Of a DNA stretch of 64,000 nucleotides, positions 15,932 through 29,224 are shown one piece after another (the first letter of the stretch is position 1; every line of letters starts with the position of its first letter). The position numbers were made by a program, and so were the translations under genes. The notes under the pieces are model-generated. The model ran no database searches and was not told where the DNA came from. It was given only the letters and a program-made list of their open reading frames with translations. This DNA is from Natrinema longum (lineage in GTDB: Archaea > Halobacteriota > Halobacteria > Halobacteriales > Natrialbaceae). Where the stretch lies: positions 744,001-808,000 of the forward strand of contig NZ_CP071463.1 of assembly GCF_017352095.1 (NCBI RefSeq), in the 5' to 3' direction.

Positions 15932-17203
15932 ATGGCAAACGACAGATCCTCGAGTGAGACGGACGCAGCCGAGCAGCGACGAATGACCTCCGATCCCGAG
16001 CGAATCAGGGAGTGGGCTGAGGCTCGCGATGCCGTCCCGGTCGGGATCAGCGACAGCGAGGGCCACGGTCACACGTTCGCTCACCGGGACGAACTGGGTG
16101 CGGATCACGAGGAGTATACCTGGGCGGAGTTCGAGGACCGGTTCGACGACGAGGACCTCGTGTTCGTCTACCACGAGGAGGAACCGGCCGGGGAAGGGCT
16201 GGGCTTCTTCGAGATCGTCGACCGCGAGCGGGCCTTCGATCGGGCGGATCTCGGCCGGGACGAACTCGAGGACTCGCTGCGTCGCGGCGAGACGGTAACG
16301 ACCGAAATCGTCGAGACGCAAGTCGTCGAGCGGGAGATCGTCGAGCGGGACACGATCGAGAGCGAAGTGATCGACACGGATCTGGTCGAACGGGAGGTCG
16401 TCGACTCCGAACTGCTGAGCCGCGAGATCGTCGAGACGGAGTTCGTCGCCGACGACGTAATCGAGGTCGCCGTCGACGAGACTCGCCTGGACACGATCGA
16501 GGAGATCGAGCGCTACACCGTCGAGAGCCGCGTCGTCGACGTCGACATCGAACAGGACGAACAACTCGAGCGCGACGAGATCGAGACGGACATCGAACTC
16601 GAGAGCGTCCAGCGATCGATCCTCGAGAGCGACATCATCCGCTCGAGCGTGACGCCCGACGACGTGGTCGAACAGGAAGTGATCCAGAGCCAGCGGGCCG
16701 AAGGCGACGCCGTTCACAGCGAACTCATCGAACGCAGGACGATCGAAGAGGAGCTACGCGAGCAGCGGCGGATGCAATACGTGCTCGAGGACTCCGAACT
16801 GATCGAGTCGGAGGTCATCACCAGCGAGGTTCTCGAAGGCGAGATCATCGACATCGAGGAGTACGGAGCGATGGCGGGAGGCGACGTGGAAGCCACGAGT
16901 GGCGAGGCGACGACGAGTGCCGGCTCCGACGCCGAGATGGGAGCGACGGAGGAACCGGTGGCGTCGTCGGTCGAACTCACTCACGAGGATCAGGGAAAGG
17001 ACGTCGTCGACGAATCGGGCCAGCAGATCGGAATGGTCGCCGAAGTCGAGGGCCAGACGGCCTACATCGACCCCGAACCCGGGCTGACCGACCGCCTCAA
17101 AGCGCGGCTGGACTGGGGCGGCCACGGTGACGACGACTACCCCGTCGACGCGGCTCAGGTAACCGAGATTACGGACGACGAGATCGTCATCCGAAGCGAG
17201 TAA
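15932..17203 (+). CDS. acidic pentad-repeat protein with C-terminal PRC-barrel
   Basis: A 423-residue, very acidic protein of unknown function. Residues 20-95 form a small domain (RIREWAEARDA, YTWAEFEDRFDDEDLVFVYH) seen in haloarchaeal hypothetical proteins. Residues 124-310 are built from five-residue units of the form x-[DE]-hydrophobic-[VIL]-[DE], such as TEIVE, REIVE, SEVID and TDLVE. After an Ala/Gly/Ser linker, residues about 348-423 read as a PRC-barrel (GKDVVDESGQQIGMV, AQVTEITDDEIVIRS). No signal peptide or membrane segment. The five-residue period suggests a beta-helix (inference). Confidence 0.8.
   Translation: MANDRSSSETDAAEQRRMTSDPERIREWAEARDAVPVGISDSEGHGHTFAHRDELGADHEEYTWAEFEDRFDDEDLVFVYHEEEPAGEGLGFFEIVDRERAFDRADLGRDELEDSLRRGETVTTEIVETQVVEREIVERDTIESEVIDTDLVEREVVDSELLSREIVETEFVADDVIEVAVDETRLDTIEEIERYTVESRVVDVDIEQDEQLERDEIETDIELESVQRSILESDIIRSSVTPDDVVEQEVIQSQRAEGDAVHSELIERRTIEEELREQRRMQYVLEDSELIESEVITSEVLEGEIIDIEEYGAMAGGDVEATSGEATTSAGSDAEMGATEEPVASSVELTHEDQGKDVVDESGQQIGMVAEVEGQTAYIDPEPGLTDRLKARLDWGGHGDDDYPVDAAQVTEITDDEIVIRSE
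16301..16861 (+). repeat. coding five-residue repeat tract
   Basis: This part of the acidic PRC-barrel gene encodes at least eleven uninterrupted pentads in residues 124-178, then looser units up to residue 310. The DNA repeats are diverged, so the period is kept by selection on the protein rather than by recent tandem duplication. Confidence 0.7.
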
Positions 17204-19891: not shown

Positions 19892-19953
19892 CAGACGGTC
19901 TCCCGTCCGTCAATGCCGGTGGGACCGGGACATCGGGACGGCAAACCGTCTCA
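19892..19953 (-). repeat. stop-anchored hairpin element, copy 1
   Basis: Read with the PRC-barrel gene, the element starts at that gene's TGA stop and runs TGAGACGGTTTGCCGTCCCG, ending GGGAGACCGTCTGA. It has inverted ends (GACGGT/ACCGTC) and inner arms CCGTCC/GGACGG. This copy lacks about 16 central bases compared with the copies near 44.4 and 50.9 kb and lies in the opposite polarity relative to its gene. The remaining bases up to 19548 hold no recognised gene. Confidence 0.75.
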
Positions 19954-20199
19954 GTCGCGTTTCGTCCGGTCGACGATCAGGTAATCGTCGATGTCGCTCA
20001 GACAGTGGGCGGGGACGACGATCTTTCCGTCGTCGTTCCTGTCGAACCCCCTGACGGTGTCGGCAGTTGGGGTAACGAGTACGTGTCGGAGCGCTCCGGT
20101 TTCGACGTTCATCGTCACGTTGTGAACCGTTCCGATCTCCGTTCCGTCTGCTCCCATCACTGGCGTCTCGGAGAGCGTGGAGGCGAGGACCGTTGTCAT
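19951..20199 (-). CDS. PRC-barrel domain protein
   Basis: An 82-residue single-domain PRC-barrel protein (MTTVLASTLSETPVMGADGT, GTVHNVTMNVETG, IVVPAHCLSDIDDYLIVDR). Small proteins of this type occur throughout haloarchaea, and one subgroup (CdpB) acts at the division site with SepF and FtsZ. This sequence alone does not place it in that subgroup. Its stop codon is the end of a dispersed hairpin element. Confidence 0.88.
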   Translation of the reverse strand: MTTVLASTLSETPVMGADGTEIGTVHNVTMNVETGALRHVLVTPTADTVRGFDRNDDGKIVVPAHCLSDIDDYLIVDRTKRD

Positions 20200-20302: not shown

Positions 20303-21643
20303 TTACTCTTCTTCTTCCGGCGTGTCGGCTGCCTCGCTGTCGATCCGACGGCTGACGTCGACCTGGTAGTTCTCGAGGATATCCCGGCCGAGCAGGACCG
20401 GGTAGTCCATGTGGCTGCGGTCCTCGACGCTGGCCGTGACCGTATGCTGGTTGCCGCCGACGCCGACGACCACGTCGACGACGGGACGGCTTTTCGATTG
20501 CTTGCTGCTCCCGGATCTGATGCGGGTGATGGATTTGATCGGGCCGGCACCGATGTCGGCTGCGAGGCCGGTGTCGATGCTCGTCCGCGTCGCACCGGTG
20601 TCGGACTTCGCGAGCACCGATTTCGAGCCGCTGGTCCCCGAGAGGACGACCTCTTCGGTGTAGCCGATCACCGCGTGCTCCGTCTCCGTGGTCATCGCTG
20701 CGGGCTGGGCGGTCGGTCGGGAATCGTCGAGGACGGTCGATATATCTCGCACTCGGGAGTCGTCGACCTCGCCGCCTGCACGTTCGATCGCCAACTTCGC
20801 GATGTACGGTGCCGGGCTTACCTGTGTTGCCTCGTAGAGCCCTTTGAACCCTGCCGTCGGGTTGACCTCGAGGACGAACCAGCCTTCGTCCCCTTCGACG
20901 AGGTCGACACCCGCGTAATCGAGACCGACGATGTCGGCCGCCTTGCGGGCCATCTCGCGGGCCTCCTCGGGAAGATCCTCGGTCGCGTCCTCGACGGAGC
21001 CGCCGAGTGCGACGTTGGTTCGCCAGTCGTTGTCCGGCGCGTAGCGGTACATCGCGGCGACGACCTCGCCGCCGACGACGTAGACGCGCAGGTCGCGGTG
21101 GCGGACGTCTTCCATATCGACGAGTTCCTGCAGGAAGGCATAGCGGTTGCCCACCTTCGCGTTGATGGGATCGTCGGGGCCGACCTTCCACGTCCCGCCG
21201 CCGTGGGTCCCGATCGCAGTCTTGTACACCGCCTCTTCGCCGTACCGATCCCGTGCGGCGTTCAATCGATCGCCGCTGAGCGCGAGCGTGACGTCGGGCG
21301 TCCTGATATCGTTCGCCGCCAGTGCGGTCGCCGTCGACAGCTTGTGAATCGCAGTCAACACCGCGTTCGGTTCGTTGAGCGTCGGCACCAGCTGGGAGAA
21401 CGTGTTCGCGAGCCCGAGTTCCTCCGCGGGCTGTTCGGTGTTCGACAGCAACATTCGATTCGCGATCACGTCGACGTCGGGCTCGAGGACGGGACTTCCG
21501 TCAGCGACGCTGACCGACGTGTTCTCGTTGCGAAGCCACTCGGTGTCGTGTCCGAGTTCTTCGACGGCGTTGAGAATCGCCTTGGTTTCCTTACTTGTAT
21601 GAAGACTCAATACCCCGACGGTTACGGGATCGGCACCGGCCAT
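20303..21643 (-). CDS. RimK-type ATP-grasp glutamate ligase fused to RimB-like retropepsin domain
   Basis: A 446-residue fusion. Residues 1-300 are a RimK-like ATP-grasp ligase (HKLSTATALAANDI, IGTHGGGTWKV, LRVYVVGGEVVAAM, and the metal motif FVLEVNPTAGF). Residues about 317-446 are a RimB/ATP-dependent zinc protease-type domain with the aspartyl-protease signature Asp-Thr-Gly at 348-350 (SDTGATRTS) and the C-terminal VLLGRDILENY. In Pseudomonas, separate RimK and RimB add and trim glutamates on ribosomal protein S6. The archaeal target is unknown. ATG 21643 is chosen over an in-frame start at 21709. A flippase gene ends about 90 bases upstream. Confidence 0.85.
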   Translation of the reverse strand: MAGADPVTVGVLSLHTSKETKAILNAVEELGHDTEWLRNENTSVSVADGSPVLEPDVDVIANRMLLSNTEQPAEELGLANTFSQLVPTLNEPNAVLTAIHKLSTATALAANDIRTPDVTLALSGDRLNAARDRYGEEAVYKTAIGTHGGGTWKVGPDDPINAKVGNRYAFLQELVDMEDVRHRDLRVYVVGGEVVAAMYRYAPDNDWRTNVALGGSVEDATEDLPEEAREMARKAADIVGLDYAGVDLVEGDEGWFVLEVNPTAGFKGLYEATQVSPAPYIAKLAIERAGGEVDDSRVRDISTVLDDSRPTAQPAAMTTETEHAVIGYTEEVVLSGTSGSKSVLAKSDTGATRTSIDTGLAADIGAGPIKSITRIRSGSSKQSKSRPVVDVVVGVGGNQHTVTASVEDRSHMDYPVLLGRDILENYQVDVSRRIDSEAADTPEEEE

Positions 21644-21735
21644 ACGGGATAAACGCCAACCCGTCGGATAAGTATTGGCAGTTCGGTCGGTTGTGACAGT
21701 CGCTCCCACCGGGTAAGTGTAATACGCCGTATGTA

Positions 21736-23205
21736 TCAGCTGATAACAGATCGAACCTGTCCCGGATCGACCAACCCGCTCAGCACGGCCAGGACGGCCC
21801 AGGTGATCGTGCCGACGGCGATCGCTCCGAACAACATGAGCAGGTTCGAAACCAACGGCGTCACCACGAGTACGGAGACGGCCATCACACCAGTGATCCC
21901 ACAGATCAGTCCCGTCCTGCGGGCGATCCGCGCGACGTTCAGGCCGAGTTCGGTGTGGACGATATAGAGGTTGACCGCCACGTAGACCGAGTGCGTCGCC
22001 ACCGTGGCGATCGCGGCACCGACGACCCCGATCGTCGGAATCAACACGACGTTCAACCCGAAGTTGGCGACGGCCGTCCCGCCTTTGGCCATCGCGCGTG
22101 CTCGAGCGCGCCCCAGATAATCCAAGCTATCGCTCGTCAGGTTCGTGATCGCCTGCAACACGACGAACCCGGCGAGGACCTGCAACACGGGTACCGCGGC
22201 CGCGTAGTCGGTTCCAAAGACCAGCGTCAGGAACGGCCTCGCGACGATCGCCAGGCCGACCGCCGCGGGGATGTAGAGCAACAGGACGTTCGTCAGCGAC
22301 GTTTGGTAGATCTGCCGGGCGCTTTCGAGTTCCCCGGCGGCCTTCTGTTCGCCGAAGTTCGGTGAGATCGTAAACCCGAGCGATTCGGCGGGTGCGAGAA
22401 CGAAGTCGGTGATCTGCTTCGCGAGGGTGTAGAACGCGACCGCCGCGGGATTGATGAAGAAACCGACCAGAACGATATCGATCTGTTTGTCGATGACGTT
22501 CGCGCTCTGTGTCGCCGTCAGCGGGACGCTGTACTCGAGCAGCCTGCGCGAGAGCCCCTCCTCGTATTCCTCGGCCGTCTCGTACCGTCTGTAGAATCCA
22601 TAGTAGAGGATTCCGACTCCGATCGCAGCGGCGATGGCGTAGCCGACGATGTAGCCGAAGAACGCGCCGAGCGCGCCGAGGCCGGCGAGGACGAACGCGA
22701 CGGCGAAGACGAGCCTGCCGATCCCGCTGACGGCCTGAACGATGGCGCTGTAGCCGAGGTGATTGAATCCCTGGAGTGCGACCTGCGAAAACGTGCTCGC
22801 GGAAAACGCCAGGAGATAGAGGGCCCCCGCTGCGAGAAACGGGACGGCTCCCGGCTCACCGAGCGCGAGCGCGAGCCGCTCGTGAAAGAGCACCAGCACG
22901 TACCCGACGACCGTGATCAACACGAGTTTCGCCGTAACCGTCGTTCTGAGTAGGTGTGGTACCTGTCCGGGATCCGTCTCCCGGTACTCGGAGATGTACC
23001 GCGCGACGGACCGCGAGAGCCCGAGATCCGCGAACAGTTGGATGATCGCCAACACACCGATGGCCCAGTACAGCGCGCCGTAGCCGTCCGGATCGAGCAG
23101 ATACCGTGCCAGGACGAAGAGTAAGAGCGCGCTCGAGAGCATGTAGGTCGCGCGCGCAATGAGCGTTGCTTTGAAGCCGTCGACGATGTGGTCCTCCCTG
23201 TTCAT
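21736..23205 (-). CDS. Wzx/RfbX-like polysaccharide flippase
   Basis: A 489-residue, 12-14 helix membrane protein of the oligosaccharide/lipid flippase (MVF) superfamily. The N-terminus VDGFKATLIARATYMLSSAL and the segments LGLSRSVARYISEY and ALQGFNHLGYSA are typical. It would flip lipid-linked glycans across the membrane for N-glycosylation or surface polysaccharide. ATG 23205 is taken; ATG 23223 is also possible. No glycosyltransferase is adjacent; the only GT in the window is near 2.9 kb. Confidence 0.88.
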   Translation of the reverse strand: MNREDHIVDGFKATLIARATYMLSSALLLFVLARYLLDPDGYGALYWAIGVLAIIQLFADLGLSRSVARYISEYRETDPGQVPHLLRTTVTAKLVLITVVGYVLVLFHERLALALGEPGAVPFLAAGALYLLAFSASTFSQVALQGFNHLGYSAIVQAVSGIGRLVFAVAFVLAGLGALGAFFGYIVGYAIAAAIGVGILYYGFYRRYETAEEYEEGLSRRLLEYSVPLTATQSANVIDKQIDIVLVGFFINPAAVAFYTLAKQITDFVLAPAESLGFTISPNFGEQKAAGELESARQIYQTSLTNVLLLYIPAAVGLAIVARPFLTLVFGTDYAAAVPVLQVLAGFVVLQAITNLTSDSLDYLGRARARAMAKGGTAVANFGLNVVLIPTIGVVGAAIATVATHSVYVAVNLYIVHTELGLNVARIARRTGLICGITGVMAVSVLVVTPLVSNLLMLFGAIAVGTITWAVLAVLSGLVDPGQVRSVIS

Positions 23206-23430
23206 AGTTCGGCGATGGGACACTCGTGACTGTCGACGCAGCGGTCGAAAGCGGCCAACGTACTCGTCGAATCGGGCGATCGATCAATTGTAATGGGGGG
23301 ACAACAGCGCGAAGGCACACGTAACAGGACCGAGGACGGCCGGCCGCCGGACCGGACCGTTCTGCCGGGGAAATCCCGGTACGAGCGGGTACAGACTGGG
23401 CTGTAGCGTCACCTAACTAGCCGAACGGCG

Positions 23431-23460
23431 TCCGTACAGCAGGCAAACTGCCCGTACGGA
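23431..23460 (-). terminator. hairpin downstream of the GNAT gene
   Basis: Arms TCCGTAC and GTACGGA, with inner pairs GCAG/CTGC around a five-base loop, form an almost perfect hairpin 52 bases beyond the stop of the minus-strand acetyltransferase gene. A T/C-rich stretch lies between the two. It could be a terminator, though archaea do not require hairpins for this. Confidence 0.45.
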
Positions 23461-23511
23461 GTGGAACTGGCGGACCAAACGACGAGAAAGAGGGGAACTG
23501 GCGGCTCGACC

Positions 23512-24264
23512 CTACAGGTACGACGAGTCCCACCGCGTCGCTTTCCGCCGGTTGCCGCAGTTGTTACACTCGATTCGCCCCATCGCGTCCATCGCGTTGT
23601 CGATCGAGTCGCAGTTGCCACAGAACCAGGCGTACTGGTCGTGTCGGTCCTCGCTCTTGTAGGCCGTGTAAAACGGCGATCGACTCCCGCGGGCGGCCTC
23701 TCCGTAGCTCACGTAGATCGTCTCGCCGTCGACCGTGAGCTCGTCGATCGCGCCCCATTCGCCGTCGTCGTCGAGGTCGCACTCGATGTAGACGTTCTCG
23801 GTAAACGTTTCGTCGCCGATCTCGACCTCGCGCTGGCCGGCCTGCTCGAAGCCGTGGTTTCGGTAGAACTCGTTGCCGCCCTCGTTGTCCGCGAGGACGA
23901 AACACTGGATCCCCGTCGCGCCCTCCTCGAGCAACCGCTCGCGAGTGCGAACGAGCAGTCGCACGCCCGTTCCGCCGTCGCGGTGGTCGGGGTGGACGTG
24001 CAGCCAGAGGAGGTGGCCGATGGTAGCCGGCTGGCCGACGAGTTCGCTCTGGGAGAAGCCGGCGATCTCGCCGTCGCGTTCGACGACCAGAAAGAGCGAC
24101 CGGTCGTCGGCGAGTTCGTCGGCGATGGAGTCACCGTACCACTGCTCGATCGCATCGTCGATGGTCGCTTCCTCGAGGAAGGCCGTGTACGTGGAGTTGA
24201 GCGAATCGTGAGCGATCGAGCGAATCGCTTCGACGTCGGCGTCGGTGGCCTCTCGAATTTCCAT
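23512..24264 (-). CDS. GNAT acetyltransferase with C-terminal zinc ribbon
   Basis: A 250-residue protein. Residues 1-165 are a GNAT N-acetyltransferase: IREATDADVEAI start and the acetyl-CoA pyrophosphate loop in HPDHRDGGTGVRLL. After a linker, the last 40 residues form a two-knuckle zinc ribbon (WFCGNCDS, IECNNCGNRRKA). The ribbon suggests that it recognises nucleic acid, ribosome or a specific protein. ATG 24264 is chosen; an in-frame ATG at 24291 adds nine residues. It lies between the flippase and a divergent M14 deacylase. Confidence 0.85.
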   Translation of the reverse strand: MEIREATDADVEAIRSIAHDSLNSTYTAFLEEATIDDAIEQWYGDSIADELADDRSLFLVVERDGEIAGFSQSELVGQPATIGHLLWLHVHPDHRDGGTGVRLLVRTRERLLEEGATGIQCFVLADNEGGNEFYRNHGFEQAGQREVEIGDETFTENVYIECDLDDDGEWGAIDELTVDGETIYVSYGEAARGSRSPFYTAYKSEDRHDQYAWFCGNCDSIDNAMDAMGRIECNNCGNRRKATRWDSSYL

Positions 24265-24451
24265 GGGGGAGTGTAACACTGCCAGATACAAAACGTATGC
24301 CCACAGTCCCAGATTTTGCTTGCCGGTGTTCGATCGAACGCGGCGTTCTCCGGAAGAACCGACATGTTGAGGATGCGTGCACGCGTAACAGGGGCACCCC
24401 CGGAGCTACCCAAGGGAGAAGATTCACGGTGGTTGCCCCGGAGAAGGGTAT

Positions 24452-25546
24452 ATGACCGACAACGCGGCCAGCGAGCCACCCGATCAGTCGGATAGCTCCG
24501 AACCGATGGCGGAGGCGTTCACGTACAACGGGGGTCGAGTCGACCCCGGCGAGTCGGCGAACATCCGCTATGGAATCAGCGAAACGTATCTCGGCGATCC
24601 CGTCAGAATCCCCGTGACGGTGATCAACGGCGAGCAACCGGGGCCGACCGTGTTCCTCTCCGCGGCGGCCCACGGCGACGAATTGAACGGCATCGAGGTC
24701 GTCCGGGAAGTCGCCCACGACTGGGATCACTCGATTCTCCACGGGACGCTCGTTTGCCTCCCCGTGATGAACGTTCCCGGATTCCTCGCTCAGGAGCGGT
24801 ATCTGCCGATCTACGACCGGGACCTGAACCGATCGTTCCCCGGCCGCGAAGGATCGACCAGCGCCAGGCGGATGGCCCACCAGATCTACACGAACTTCAT
24901 CGAGCCCTGTGACATCGGGCTCGACTTCCACACCTCGACGCGCGGACGGACGAACATGATCCACGTCCGGGCGAACATGGAGCGCTCCAACGTAGCCCGC
25001 CTCGCCAAGGCGTTCAGCTCCAACGTCATCATCGCGGGCGAAGGGCCCTCGGGCACGCTCCGCCGGGAGGCGACCGAGGCCGGGATCCCCACGATCACCA
25101 TCGAGATGGGCGAAGCCCACCGGTTCCAGCGACGCCTGATCGACCAGGCACTCACCGGCGTCGCGAGCGTACTCGCCGAGTTCGGGCTCCATCGGGACTC
25201 CTCGGTCCACTGGCCCGGCTGGCGAACCGTCATCGACGACGACAACGAGAAGACCTGGCTTCGCGCGGACGCTGGCGGCATCGTCGACATGAAACGCGGC
25301 CGCGGTGCGCTCGTCGAGGAGGGGGAGGTCATCTGTACGATCACGAACCCGTTCAAAGAGGAGGAGGACATCGTCACCGTCGAGGCACCGTTTACCGGCC
25401 TCATCGTCGGCGTCCTCGAAAACCCCGTCGTCTACCCGGGGAACCCGCTCTGTCACCTCGTCGGCCTCTCGCCGGATACACTCACCGCCCTCGAGCGCGA
25501 GCGGCTGACGGAGCGATCGCGGTCGGAACTCCGGCGAAACGACTGA
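24452..25546 (+). CDS. succinylglutamate desuccinylase/aspartoacylase-family M14 metallo-deacylase
   Basis: A 364-residue zinc hydrolase. Zinc ligands are His and Glu in AAAHGDELNG and the distal His in GLDFHTSTRG; the catalytic Glu is in TITIEMGEAHRF. The C-terminal 100 residues form the beta-barrel-like AstE/lipoyl-type extension (ALVEEGEVICTI, VEAPFTGLIVGV). Enzymes of this group cleave N-acyl or amide bonds of amino acids or glutamyl side chains. The gene stands 2.8 kb from the RimK-RimB fusion, hinting at removal of added glutamate (inference only). Confidence 0.85.
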   Translation: MTDNAASEPPDQSDSSEPMAEAFTYNGGRVDPGESANIRYGISETYLGDPVRIPVTVINGEQPGPTVFLSAAAHGDELNGIEVVREVAHDWDHSILHGTLVCLPVMNVPGFLAQERYLPIYDRDLNRSFPGREGSTSARRMAHQIYTNFIEPCDIGLDFHTSTRGRTNMIHVRANMERSNVARLAKAFSSNVIIAGEGPSGTLRREATEAGIPTITIEMGEAHRFQRRLIDQALTGVASVLAEFGLHRDSSVHWPGWRTVIDDDNEKTWLRADAGGIVDMKRGRGALVEEGEVICTITNPFKEEEDIVTVEAPFTGLIVGVLENPVVYPGNPLCHLVGLSPDTLTALERERLTERSRSELRRND

Positions 25547-25660
25547 CCGATCGCCGGGTCCCCACGCTCGGTGGCTGCCTTCCGAACCCGTTCGGGAGTT
25601 CGTCACACGAACTGATTTCTTTCTGTAGGGATTCGTCGGGAGGGAAACCGAGTTGGGCGA

Positions 25661-25668
25661 GATAAAAG
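25661..25668 (+). promoter_or_regulatory. probable TATA box of the sdh operon
   Basis: GATAAAAG lies about 45 bases upstream of the sdhC ATG, which predicts transcription start near 25690 and a leader of about 20 bases. The leader contains a four-codon ATGAGCGCATGA overlapping the sdhC ATG, possibly a minimal coupling frame. Confidence 0.45.
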
Positions 25669-25709
25669 TAACTTCTATACCGCCACGGTCAAACGGTCCA
25701 CATGAGCGC

Positions 25710-26138
25710 ATGAGTCAGTCTTACAATCGCGGTCTCATCGAGGACTTCGGTCGCTGGAAGGAGTTCTCGGCCGGCATGTGGGCGTGGATCTTCCACAAGT
25801 TCACCGGATGGGTCCTGATCGGCTACCTGTTCACCCATATCGCCGTGCTGAGTACGTCTATCGGCGCAGCAAGTGAAAGCACGGATGTCATCCAGGCACA
25901 AAACGACGTCTACACCACGACGCTACAGGGACTCGAGGGCCTGTTCCTGATCCGATTGCTCGAGATCGGTCTGCTCGCGGTGGCCGTCTTCCACATCCTG
26001 AACGGCCTCCGCCTGCTGATGGTCGATCTCGGGATCGGGCTCGAGTCACAGGACAAGAGTTTCTACGCCTCGCTGGTGTTGACGGGCGCGATCACCGTCG
26101 CGAGCGTCCCGACCTTCCTCACGGGGGTGACGCTCTAA
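25710..26138 (+). CDS. sdhC: succinate dehydrogenase cytochrome b subunit
   Basis: A 142-residue membrane anchor with three helices (about residues 30-50, 83-108, 118-139). His in [16 protein letters not shown] and VFHILNGLR are candidate heme ligands. It anchors the succinate:quinone oxidoreductase and passes electrons to menaquinone. ATG 25710 is the operon's first start. Its TAA overlaps the ATG of sdhD by one base (TAATG). Confidence 0.92.
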
Positions 26139-26503
26139 TGGCGGAACGATACTCCTCGTTTACGCCCGGTGGCACCGGCTGGTTCCTCCAGCGAATCACG
26201 GCGGCGTTTCTCGTCGTCGTTCTCGCCTTCCACTTCTTCCTCCTCCACTTCGTCAACCACGCGTACGAGGTAACCTTCTTGCAGACGCAGGTCCGAATGC
26301 AGAACATCGGGTATTTCCTCACGATGGTCCTGTTTCTGGTGACCGCCGCGTTCCACGGCGTCAACGGCGTCTACAACGCTCTGGTCAATCAGGGCCTCGA
26401 GGGAACCCAGAAGAAGGTCGTGCTGGCGGTGCTGACCATCGCCGGCGTCGGACTCGTCGCACAGGGAATCTACGTCGCACTCACGATGAACGGGATGATC
26501 TAA
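26138..26503 (+). CDS. sdhD: succinate dehydrogenase membrane subunit
   Basis: A 121-residue second membrane anchor with three helices. The N-terminus SSFTPGGTGWFLQRITAAFL and His in AFHFFLLHFVNHAY are typical of haloarchaeal SdhD. It starts within the stop codon of sdhC and ends one base before the sdhB ATG, so the order sdhCDBA is tightly coupled. Confidence 0.92.
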   Translation: MAERYSSFTPGGTGWFLQRITAAFLVVVLAFHFFLLHFVNHAYEVTFLQTQVRMQNIGYFLTMVLFLVTAAFHGVNGVYNALVNQGLEGTQKKVVLAVLTIAGVGLVAQGIYVALTMNGMI

Positions 26504-26504
26504 C

Positions 26505-27383
26505 ATGAGTACACAACAAGCCGAACCCGAGAGCCAGGAGGCACCGGAAGATCCGGAGATGAAAGGCGCGGAGTCGCCCCAGGAGCGGCGACTCGAGGAG
26601 AAAGACGACGGGATGGTCGACGAACGCGCCGAGAAAACGGCCGAACTCGAGGGGGAGACGGTCCTCATCAAGGTGTTCCGTTACGACCCTGAGGTCGCGG
26701 ACAAGCAAGAGCCCCGGTTCGACGACTTCCACGTGCCGTTCACCAAGGGGATGACCGTCCTCGACGCGGTCATGTACGCGCGTGACGAGTACGACTCCTC
26801 GCTTACCTTCCGTCACTCCTGTCGGCAGGCCGTCTGTGGTTCCGACGCCTTCTTCGTCAACGGCAGGCAGCGGCTGGGTTGCAAGACCCAGATCTCGGAC
26901 CTCGAACAGCCGGTTCGCATCGAGCCGCTTCCCCACCAGGAGGTCGTCAAGGATCTGGTCGTCGACATGGACCACTTCTACGACCAGATGCATACGGTCG
27001 AACCCTACTTCCAGGACGAGGACACGCCGCCCGTCGAGGACCTCGAAGAACAGCGCCAGAGTCCGGAAAACCGCGAGAAGATCAAGATGTCCTCCCGGTG
27101 TATCTGGTGTGGCGCGTGTATGTCTAGTTGTAACATCGCGGCCGGCGACAACGAGTATCTGGGCCCCGCGGCGATCAACAAGGCCTACAAGTTCGCGATG
27201 GACGACCGCGAGGGCGAAGAGATCAAAGAGCACCGACTCCGCATTCTCGAGCAGGAACACGGCGTCTGGCGGTGCCAGACCCAGTTCTCCTGTACCGAGG
27301 TGTGTCCGAAAGACATTCCGCTCACCGAGCACATTCAGGAGCTCAAGCGGGAAGCAGTCAAGAAGAACCTGAAATTCTGGTAA
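26505..27383 (+). CDS. sdhB: succinate dehydrogenase iron-sulphur subunit
   Basis: A 292-residue electron-transfer subunit. The 2Fe-2S site uses Cys106, Cys111, Asp114 and Cys126 (SCRQAVCGSD, RLGCK), as in other SdhB. The C-terminal half has CIWCGACMSSCN and CTEVCPKDIP for the 4Fe-4S and 3Fe-4S centres. An acidic 45-residue extension precedes the ferredoxin domain, a halophile feature. The sdhA ATG follows two bases after its stop. Confidence 0.95.
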   Translation: MSTQQAEPESQEAPEDPEMKGAESPQERRLEEKDDGMVDERAEKTAELEGETVLIKVFRYDPEVADKQEPRFDDFHVPFTKGMTVLDAVMYARDEYDSSLTFRHSCRQAVCGSDAFFVNGRQRLGCKTQISDLEQPVRIEPLPHQEVVKDLVVDMDHFYDQMHTVEPYFQDEDTPPVEDLEEQRQSPENREKIKMSSRCIWCGACMSSCNIAAGDNEYLGPAAINKAYKFAMDDREGEEIKEHRLRILEQEHGVWRCQTQFSCTEVCPKDIPLTEHIQELKREAVKKNLKFW

Positions 27384-27385
27384 CT

Positions 27386-29224
27386 ATGCACGAACACGAC
27401 GTTATCGTGGTCGGCGCCGGCGGCGCCGGCCTCCGGGCCGCGATCGCAGCGCACGAAGCGGGAGCCGACGTGGCGATGGTCTCGAAGCTCCACCCCGTCC
27501 GCAGCCACACCGGCGCGGCCGAAGGTGGCATCAACGCCGCGCTCCAGGAGGGTGACGACTGGGAACTCCACGCCTACGACACCATGAAGGGGTCGGACTA
27601 CCTCGGCGACGCGCCGGCAGTCGAGACCCTCGCTCAGGACGCCCCCGAAGAGACGATCAACTTAGAGCACTGGGGGATGCCCTTCTCCCGCGAGGAGGAC
27701 GGCCGGGTCTCCCAGCGACCGTTCGGCGGCCTCTCGTACCCGCGGACGACCTACGCCGGTGCGGAGACGGGACACCACCTGCTCCACACCATGTACGAGC
27801 AGGTCGTCAAGCGAGGTATTCAGGTCTACGACGAGTGGTACGTGATGGACCTCGCGACGACCGACGAAGCCGACCCCAACGACCGCGAGTGTCACGGCGT
27901 CGTCGCCTACGACGTTCAGTCCGGACAGATTGAAGGCTTCAAGGCCAACCAGGGCGTCGTCCTCGCGACCGGCGGCCCCGGGCAGGCGTTCGACCACACC
28001 ACCAACGCCGTCTCCTGTACCGGCGACGGCCACGCGATGGCCTATCGCGCGGGTGCACCGCTCGAGGACATGGAGTTCATCCAGTTCCACCCCACGTCGC
28101 TGCCGTCGACGGGCGTCCTCATCTCCGAGGGGGTCCGCGGCGAAGGCGGCATCCTCTACAACAGCGAGGGCGAGCGGTTCATGTTCGAACACGGCTACGC
28201 GAACAACTCCGGCGAACTCGCTTCGCGGGACGTCGTCGCCCGCGCCGAGCTCACCGAGGTCGACGAGGGCCGGGGCGTCGAGGACGAGTACGTCCACCTC
28301 GACATGCGCCACCTCGGCGAGGAACGCATCATGGACCGCCTCGAGAACATCCTCCACCTCGCGGAGGACTTCGAGGGCGTCGACGGCCTCGTCGAGCCGA
28401 TGCCGGTCAAGCCCGGCCAGCACTACGCGATGGGCGGCATCGAAGTCGACGAGAACGGCCAGACCTGCGTCGACGGCCTCTACGCCGCCGGCGAGTGTGC
28501 CTGCGTCTCCGTCCACGGCGGTAACCGACTCGGCGGGAACGCCCTGCCGGAACTGATCGTCTTCGGCAAGCGCGCCGGCCGCCACGCCGCCGGCGACGAC
28601 CTCGGCGAGCCGAAGATTCGGACCGGCTACGGCGACGACGTCGAGGACGAAACGGAGACCGAACTCCCCGTCGCGCCAGGCGAAGCGGGACTCGGCACGA
28701 GCGGCGGCGTCGCCGCGGACGGCGGCGTCACTGCCGACGCCGAGGGGATTCTCGAACGAACCGTCGAGACGGCTCGCGAGCGCGTCGACCGCCTGATGGA
28801 CAAAGACGACGGCGTCCAACACGCCGAAATCCGCGCGAAACTCCAGCAGGCGATGACCGACTACGTCAACGTCTTCCGAACCGAGGAGGGCGTCAAGAAG
28901 GCCCTGAAGATCATCCGCGAGTGCCGCCAGGAGTACCAGGACGTCTACGTCGACGATCCTTCCCGGACCTTCAACACGGACCTCCAGCAGACGATCGAGA
29001 CGCGGAACCTGATCGACGTCGCGGAGTCGATCGCGCTCGGCGCGCTCGTGCGCGACGAGTTCCGCGGCGCACACTGGCGCAAGGAACACCAGGAACGCAA
29101 AGACGACGAGTGGCTCAAGCACACGCTCATCTCCTGGGACGACGGCGAACCCTCGATCTTCTACCGGCCGGTGATCCTCGAGGGACAGGAGAAGACCTAC
29201 GAGCCGAAAGAGCGCAGCTACTGA
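27386..29224 (+). CDS. sdhA: succinate dehydrogenase/fumarate reductase flavoprotein subunit
   Basis: A 612-residue catalytic subunit. The FAD fold is VIVVGAGGAGLRAA, covalent flavin attachment is at His41 (VRSHTGAAEGG), and the substrate-binding motif is HGGNRLGGNALPE. It oxidises succinate to fumarate in the citric acid cycle. A Gly/Asp-rich insertion (about residues 425-450) precedes the C-terminal helical domain, as in other halophiles. ATG 27386 follows sdhB directly; an in-frame start inside sdhB is a shadow. Confidence 0.95.
   Translation: MHEHDVIVVGAGGAGLRAAIAAHEAGADVAMVSKLHPVRSHTGAAEGGINAALQEGDDWELHAYDTMKGSDYLGDAPAVETLAQDAPEETINLEHWGMPFSREEDGRVSQRPFGGLSYPRTTYAGAETGHHLLHTMYEQVVKRGIQVYDEWYVMDLATTDEADPNDRECHGVVAYDVQSGQIEGFKANQGVVLATGGPGQAFDHTTNAVSCTGDGHAMAYRAGAPLEDMEFIQFHPTSLPSTGVLISEGVRGEGGILYNSEGERFMFEHGYANNSGELASRDVVARAELTEVDEGRGVEDEYVHLDMRHLGEERIMDRLENILHLAEDFEGVDGLVEPMPVKPGQHYAMGGIEVDENGQTCVDGLYAAGECACVSVHGGNRLGGNALPELIVFGKRAGRHAAGDDLGEPKIRTGYGDDVEDETETELPVAPGEAGLGTSGGVAADGGVTADAEGILERTVETARERVDRLMDKDDGVQHAEIRAKLQQAMTDYVNVFRTEEGVKKALKIIRECRQEYQDVYVDDPSRTFNTDLQQTIETRNLIDVAESIALGALVRDEFRGAHWRKEHQERKDDEWLKHTLISWDDGEPSIFYRPVILEGQEKTYEPKERSY

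Follow-up and report, generated by a model that had tools for sequence, protein, structure and literature searches.

A haloarchaeal RimK–RimB fusion and its M14 hydrolase partner form a putative system for building and removing glutamate chains

The window analyzed here, a 64,000-nucleotide stretch of the Natrinema longum genome, carries a gene in which a RimK ligase is fused to a RimB-type protease, together with an M14 hydrolase on the opposite strand and two genes lying between them. The features of the locus, in window coordinates, are:

20303..21709 (−): RimK–RimB fusion gene, 468 aa from a GTG start or 446 aa from an ATG at codon 23
20819..21346 (−): RimK ATP-grasp domain, residues 122–297 (Pfam RimK, E 3.6e-23)
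20306..20677 (−): RimB-type retropepsin domain, approximately residues 345–468 (Pfam match and structural model)
20594..20602 (−): DTG catalytic motif, D370–G372 (alignment of fusions)
21736..23223 (−): MOP-type flippase, separating fusion from M14 only in the window's family
23512..24291 (−): GNAT with a C-terminal DUF5816 zinc ribbon (CxxC...CxxC), inserted in the window's family only
24452..25546 (+): M14 hydrolase of AstE/AspA type, partner of the fusion (PF24827, 165.9 against a gathering cut-off of 25)
25653..29224 (+): presumably succinate dehydrogenase (sdh) genes, a name we assigned from sequence and gene order; beyond the M14 gene, a landmark of the ancestral locus outside the module

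The neighbors are those that the first-pass annotation of this DNA described, namely an aspartoacylase-like M14 enzyme, a GNAT with a ribbon and an intervening flippase. Two further ORFs were named by eye from their translations: a 423-aa protein that combines long repeats rich in Glu and Val with a PRC-barrel-like end (15932–17203, +), and, immediately downstream of the fusion, a small ORF that is likewise PRC-barrel-like (19951–20199, −).

The start of the fusion gene is uncertain between the GTG and the ATG, the latter giving the 446-residue length originally reported, and conservation runs from about residue 32 onward. As first read, ligase and retropepsin share a single chain: besides the Pfam RimK match, Zn_protease/DUF785 (PF05618) matches residues 390–455 with 43.2 bits against a gathering cut-off of 27. 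The fusion exceeds the curated cut-off of the general RimK family alpha-L-glutamate ligase model (TIGR00768, 157.8 against 143.4 bits) and reaches none of the specific RimK-class equivalog cut-offs, scoring 70.8 against 331 for the 30S ribosomal protein S6-glutamate ligase (NF007764), 119.2 against 275.6 for LysX, 51 against 300 for CofF and 123.3 against 350 for MptN. In one locus (L092), the LysX cut-off is exceeded by a different gene of the same genome (291.2). The archaeal RimB domain stays far under the RimB equivalog cut-off of 200 (NF052261, 17.4), which the RimB of a Salinivibrio operon, at 136.8, does not reach either. A model of residues 337–468, built from an alignment that included 28 bacterial RimB rows, has a mean pLDDT of 85, and a Foldseek search with it returns RloA2 (9g59, E 1.4e-8) first, followed by RloA (9g58) and DUF785 (2pma), and then by HIV-1 protease and Ddi1. 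These fold matches, together with the DTG/DSG motif described below, place the C-terminal domain among the retropepsins (A2-like).

The fusion is nearly universal in the window's class, Halobacteria, where it is matched at E < 1e-100 in 131 of 145 genomes; the remaining 14 yield no fusion match better than 1.6e-28. This frequency, which the first-pass annotation had left to be checked, means that the fusion is not a chance arrangement. Of the 109 loci with fusion matches, we excluded five that contain in-frame stops and collapsed identical sequences; the resulting 90 fusions, that of the window included, divide into a main set of 74 and 16 second-copy loci. The ligase residues K163, Q194, R208, R222, R230, D269, E281 and N283 are invariant in all 90. 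All 74 main-set fusions keep a DTG or DSG motif with D370 and G372 invariant, so that the conservation in question at the outset is borne out.

The residues expected to hold a glutamate chain are retained as well. In the available text of PMC12239564, K46, R114 and R137 of the Pseudomonas aeruginosa protease RloA contact octaglutamate in that study's model, R114A and R137A weaken the enzyme most strongly, and the three positions are common to RimB. Counting positions along the aligned RloA chain, they correspond to K368, R408 and R431 of the fusion, which are invariant in 74/74 main-set proteins. The polyglutamate-binding lysine and two arginines of RimB/RloA proteases thus appear conserved in the fusion, whose cleavage of such chains is a prediction.

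Fusions of this kind have been described before, and the suggestion that the archaeal one would be new does not hold. According to the available text of PMC2530865 (2008), DUF785 follows RimK on its carboxy-terminal side in Halobacteria (Q5V351), as it does in some marine phage-like contigs, whereas in Synechococcus it is amino-terminal to RimK. Q5V351 has the class and domain order of the window's fusion and belongs to the same protein family; the available account of the archaeal protein gives neither function, partner nor active-site conservation, the latter two of which are analyzed here. A RimBK hybrid of Desulfotalea psychrophila (PMC11957791, 2025, in its available text) likewise joins both activities in one chain, but with RimB N-terminal rather than C-terminal; its RimB part cuts polyglutamylated RpsF, while the assayed hybrid gave no glutamylation of RpsF. 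The survey in that text took in bacterial accessions only, and neither "succinylglutamate" nor "archaea" occurs in the main text of the paper. The RimABK system of Pseudomonas combines the same ligase and endopeptidase, but from separate genes, and its target RpsF belongs to a family that is absent from the Natrinema longum genome. RloABC of P. aeruginosa pairs a retropepsin carrying the same polyglutamate-binding residues with an ATP-grasp protein, but differs in its secreted proteases and its membrane protein RloB, and the available text of PMC12239564 mentions no M14 enzyme. The fusion is therefore ordinary and already in print, whereas its link to an M14 hydrolase has apparently been overlooked: we found no report tying M14 to RimK or RimB in the literature searched, although the 2009 amidoligase survey by Iyer and colleagues may contain one.

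The M14 enzyme carries H74, E77, H160 and E218, which we take to be the zinc-ligand and active-site set of the AstE/AspA type, and these residues are invariant in 64/64 sequences along with N126-R127 and R204. It falls short of the DoeB (96.8 against 402.7), AstE (25.1 against 305.65) and aspartoacylase (37 against 180) equivalog cut-offs, and its single-sequence structure prediction has a mean pLDDT of 34. Across 61 loci (60 genome stretches and the window), the M14 gene lies head-to-head with the fusion in 53, a conservation of neighborhood that the first-pass annotation had asked about: in 35 at under 400 bp, and in 18 at a wider spacing (two plain, 15 with GNAT and flippase between, one with GNAT only). 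One further locus has a different arrangement and seven lack the M14 gene inside the stretch. The 16 loci that carry insertions all come from the window's family (in L037, one of the 15 with both genes, the flippase match is merely 28%), and outside that family the M14 gene usually adjoins the fusion head-to-head. Since the insertions are confined to this family, the ancestral order was probably fusion, M14, sdh, with flippase and GNAT as later arrivals. The same divergent pair occurs on a Halolamina plasmid, and where the fusion is a paralogous one, in L141, L142 and L144, the M14 gene paired with it is a paralogue too.

Fusion and M14 are also lost together. Of the 14 fusion-less genomes, 13 have no M14, whereas none of the 131 with a fusion lacks it (best E < 1e-145 where found). 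The Fisher p of 1e-17 is overstated, because the genomes are related and because several of the co-losses probably reflect one deletion spanning adjacent genes. Two fusions (G123 and G130) are only about 48% identical; if they are scored as absent, M14 is lacking in 13 of 16. The sole exception, G109, retains M14 beside a 70-residue fusion remnant, and G113, without a fusion, holds a 62-residue M14 remnant. The strongest case is G051, in which katG, a PRC gene, the flippase, the GNAT and sdh are all kept in window order, with only a decayed fusion N-terminus on one side of the two inserted genes and M14 undetectable on the other: two losses flanking a retained pair of genes. Nothing of the set is missing in its congener G084. 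By eye, eight genomes (G028, G044, G063, G074, G092, G123, G130 and G135) keep both fusion and M14 at widely separated sites.

The retention of flippase and GNAT in G051 also marks these two genes as bystanders. We considered both as components of the system and rejected them, so that the GNAT part of the original grouping falls away: they are inserts of the window's family, and genomes that lack the fusion also have GNAT homologues. Both can be set aside in the window.

A similar association exists in bacteria. A profile scan with M14 gave 80 loci, chiefly from marine and halophilic gammaproteobacteria plus one Methanolobus, and the examined flank held RimK in 52 and RimB in 48; in 46 of the 80, the order RimB–RimK–M14 runs on a single strand, often with overlapping genes. 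Annotated operons of this type are found in Salinivibrio, Vibrio, Acaryochloris and Phaeobacter. In the examined regions of Leisingera, Thioclava, Vibrio sp. HDW18, Azospirillum and Pseudomonas veronii, no M14 gene is annotated beside RimK or RimB, and two more regions carry no annotation. Among 114 gammaproteobacterial genomes sampled regardless of M14 and tallied by eye, PF05618 is present in 51 and M14 in 32; PF05618 accompanies M14 in 30 of the latter, against 21 of the 82 genomes without M14, and the two lie within about 3 kb in 25 of the 32. Since RimK is absent from the flank of 28 of the 80 M14 loci, and M14 from 21 of the 51 genomes with PF05618, each can act alone. The RimK of the single bacterial operon scanned scores 469 with the S6-glutamate ligase model, above its cut-off of 331. 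In a quick tree, whose branches are long, the haloarchaeal M14 enzymes join the bacterial rim-linked ones, far from two other M14 proteins of the window's own genome. The haloarchaeal unit would be a derived, fused form of the bacterial RimB–RimK–M14 operon, with transfer presumably from bacteria. We note that the Methanolobus locus (L227) shows RimB, RimK and M14 genes together in a methanogen, a bacterial-type arrangement in an archaeon, and that a mechanosensitive channel, a magnesium transporter and universal stress genes stand beside the bacterial trio at L149, L150 and L160.

In sum, synteny, co-occurrence and bacterial operons turn the earlier tentative grouping with M14 into a well-supported partnership, with M14 as the true partner of the fusion.

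As to what the partners do, the fusion probably both builds and cuts glutamate chains, and we consider it reasonably likely that the three activities form a polyglutamate cycle. The RimK domain would attach alpha-linked glutamates to a carboxylate, be it that of free glutamate or of a protein C-terminus. Working as a retropepsin dimer, the RimB half of the fusion would cut long chains, and from whatever short chains or caps this endopeptidase leaves, the M14 enzyme would remove glutamate. RloA is ineffective when the run has six glutamates or fewer (PMC12239564, available text), so that short chains would remain after the action of a similar endopeptidase. In the M14 enzyme, the invariant R204 aligns with an Asp in DoeB. 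DoeB releases a basic amino acid, and on this one alignment an M14 enzyme releasing an acidic one might complete chain removal. The substrates of M14 family members are N-acyl amino acids, which counts against an M14 step on glutamate chains. The low RimB equivalog score of the archaeal domain, the lack of RpsF glutamylation by the assayed bacterial hybrid, the second-copy fusions that have lost DTG, the M14 retained in G109, and the bacterial M14 and PF05618 genes that occur without each other or without RimK also weigh against the cycle.

That the chains consist of glutamate agrees with the class of the RimK domain, with the clamp residues kept in the fusion and with biochemical results from bacteria; we infer glutamate as the residue added in archaea, the action of M14 on the same chains and the nature of the target. 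A ribosomal target of the bacterial kind, raised in the first-pass annotation, drops out in Natrinema longum, whose genome lacks bS6 (Ribosomal_S6, PF01250, 0/1, found in 10 of 14 controls). The polyglutamate cycle predicts that nearly all haloarchaea write and erase glutamate chains, though the genome holds no known bacterial ribosomal target, and it adds M14 to the RimK/RimB system as a third enzyme, apparently overlooked so far and testable in Haloferax and Vibrio.

Other readings of the same genes fare less well. In a small-molecule route modeled on mammalian NAT8L, RIMKLA and ASPA, RimK would join glutamate onto an N-acyl amino acid, with M14 as the deacylase, yielding an N-acylated acidic dipeptide as solute. 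The AstE/AspA type of the M14 enzyme suits this route, as does the alignment of R204 and of the GEAxRF arginine of rim-linked M14 enzymes with an Asp and a non-Arg residue, respectively, in DoeB, which fits an acidic leaving group; the GNAT lies between fusion and M14 in the window, but it is found at the locus in one family only and persists where both partners are lost. A conserved polyglutamate clamp and an endopeptidase are, moreover, ill-suited to a dipeptide, and we regard this route as unlikely.

Quite unlikely, in our estimate, is an osmotic polyanion buffer of halophilic archaea and marine bacteria, in which poly-alpha-glutamate made by RimK would be returned to free glutamate by RimB and M14, shifting osmolarity while charge is kept, with protein tagging as a side branch.

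The fusion could also set the glutamate tail of F420, folate or a pterin, to be trimmed by RimB and M14, and two RimK homologues of Methanocaldococcus jannaschii do serve coenzyme biosynthesis (PMC11957791, available text); the fusion nevertheless lies under the CofF and MptN cut-offs and the RimK of the scanned bacterial trio is S6-type, making such cofactor glutamylation very improbable. Just as improbable is that the M14 gene merely belongs to the sdh region while the fusion acts alone: sdhB is present in 46 of the 61 loci and five loci (L123, L124, L125, L127 and L128) have M14 with sdh and the fusion elsewhere, but M14 adjoins the fusion without sdh in others (e.g., L054, L064 and L072), on the plasmid and, with RimK and RimB, in bacterial operons, and all 14 fusion-less genomes keep sdhB while 13 of them lack M14.

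The second copies behave differently from the main copy, which is never motif-less in the set analyzed. In 6 of the 16 second-copy loci, the D, T/S or G of the DTG motif is lost along with clamp residues, while the ligase residues are intact, which indicates that a second copy can turn into a ligase lacking an eraser. The six (L135, L136, L137, L140, L143 and L145, with motifs such as EPV, NPA or DTA) are candidates for this role. Around 19 second-copy loci, the neighbors conserved across genera are M14 pairs alone; otherwise, synteny is local to a single genus.

A close-relative search of IMG/VR confirmed no viral relatives of the fusion. More distantly, an ORF of Yersinia phage vB_Yru_GN1 annotated as a structural protein (L156:2617–4038) matches fusion residues 111–450, with RimK followed by a RimB-like domain carrying DTG, and Yersinia phage YerA41 also carries a distant RimK and RimB-like ORF.
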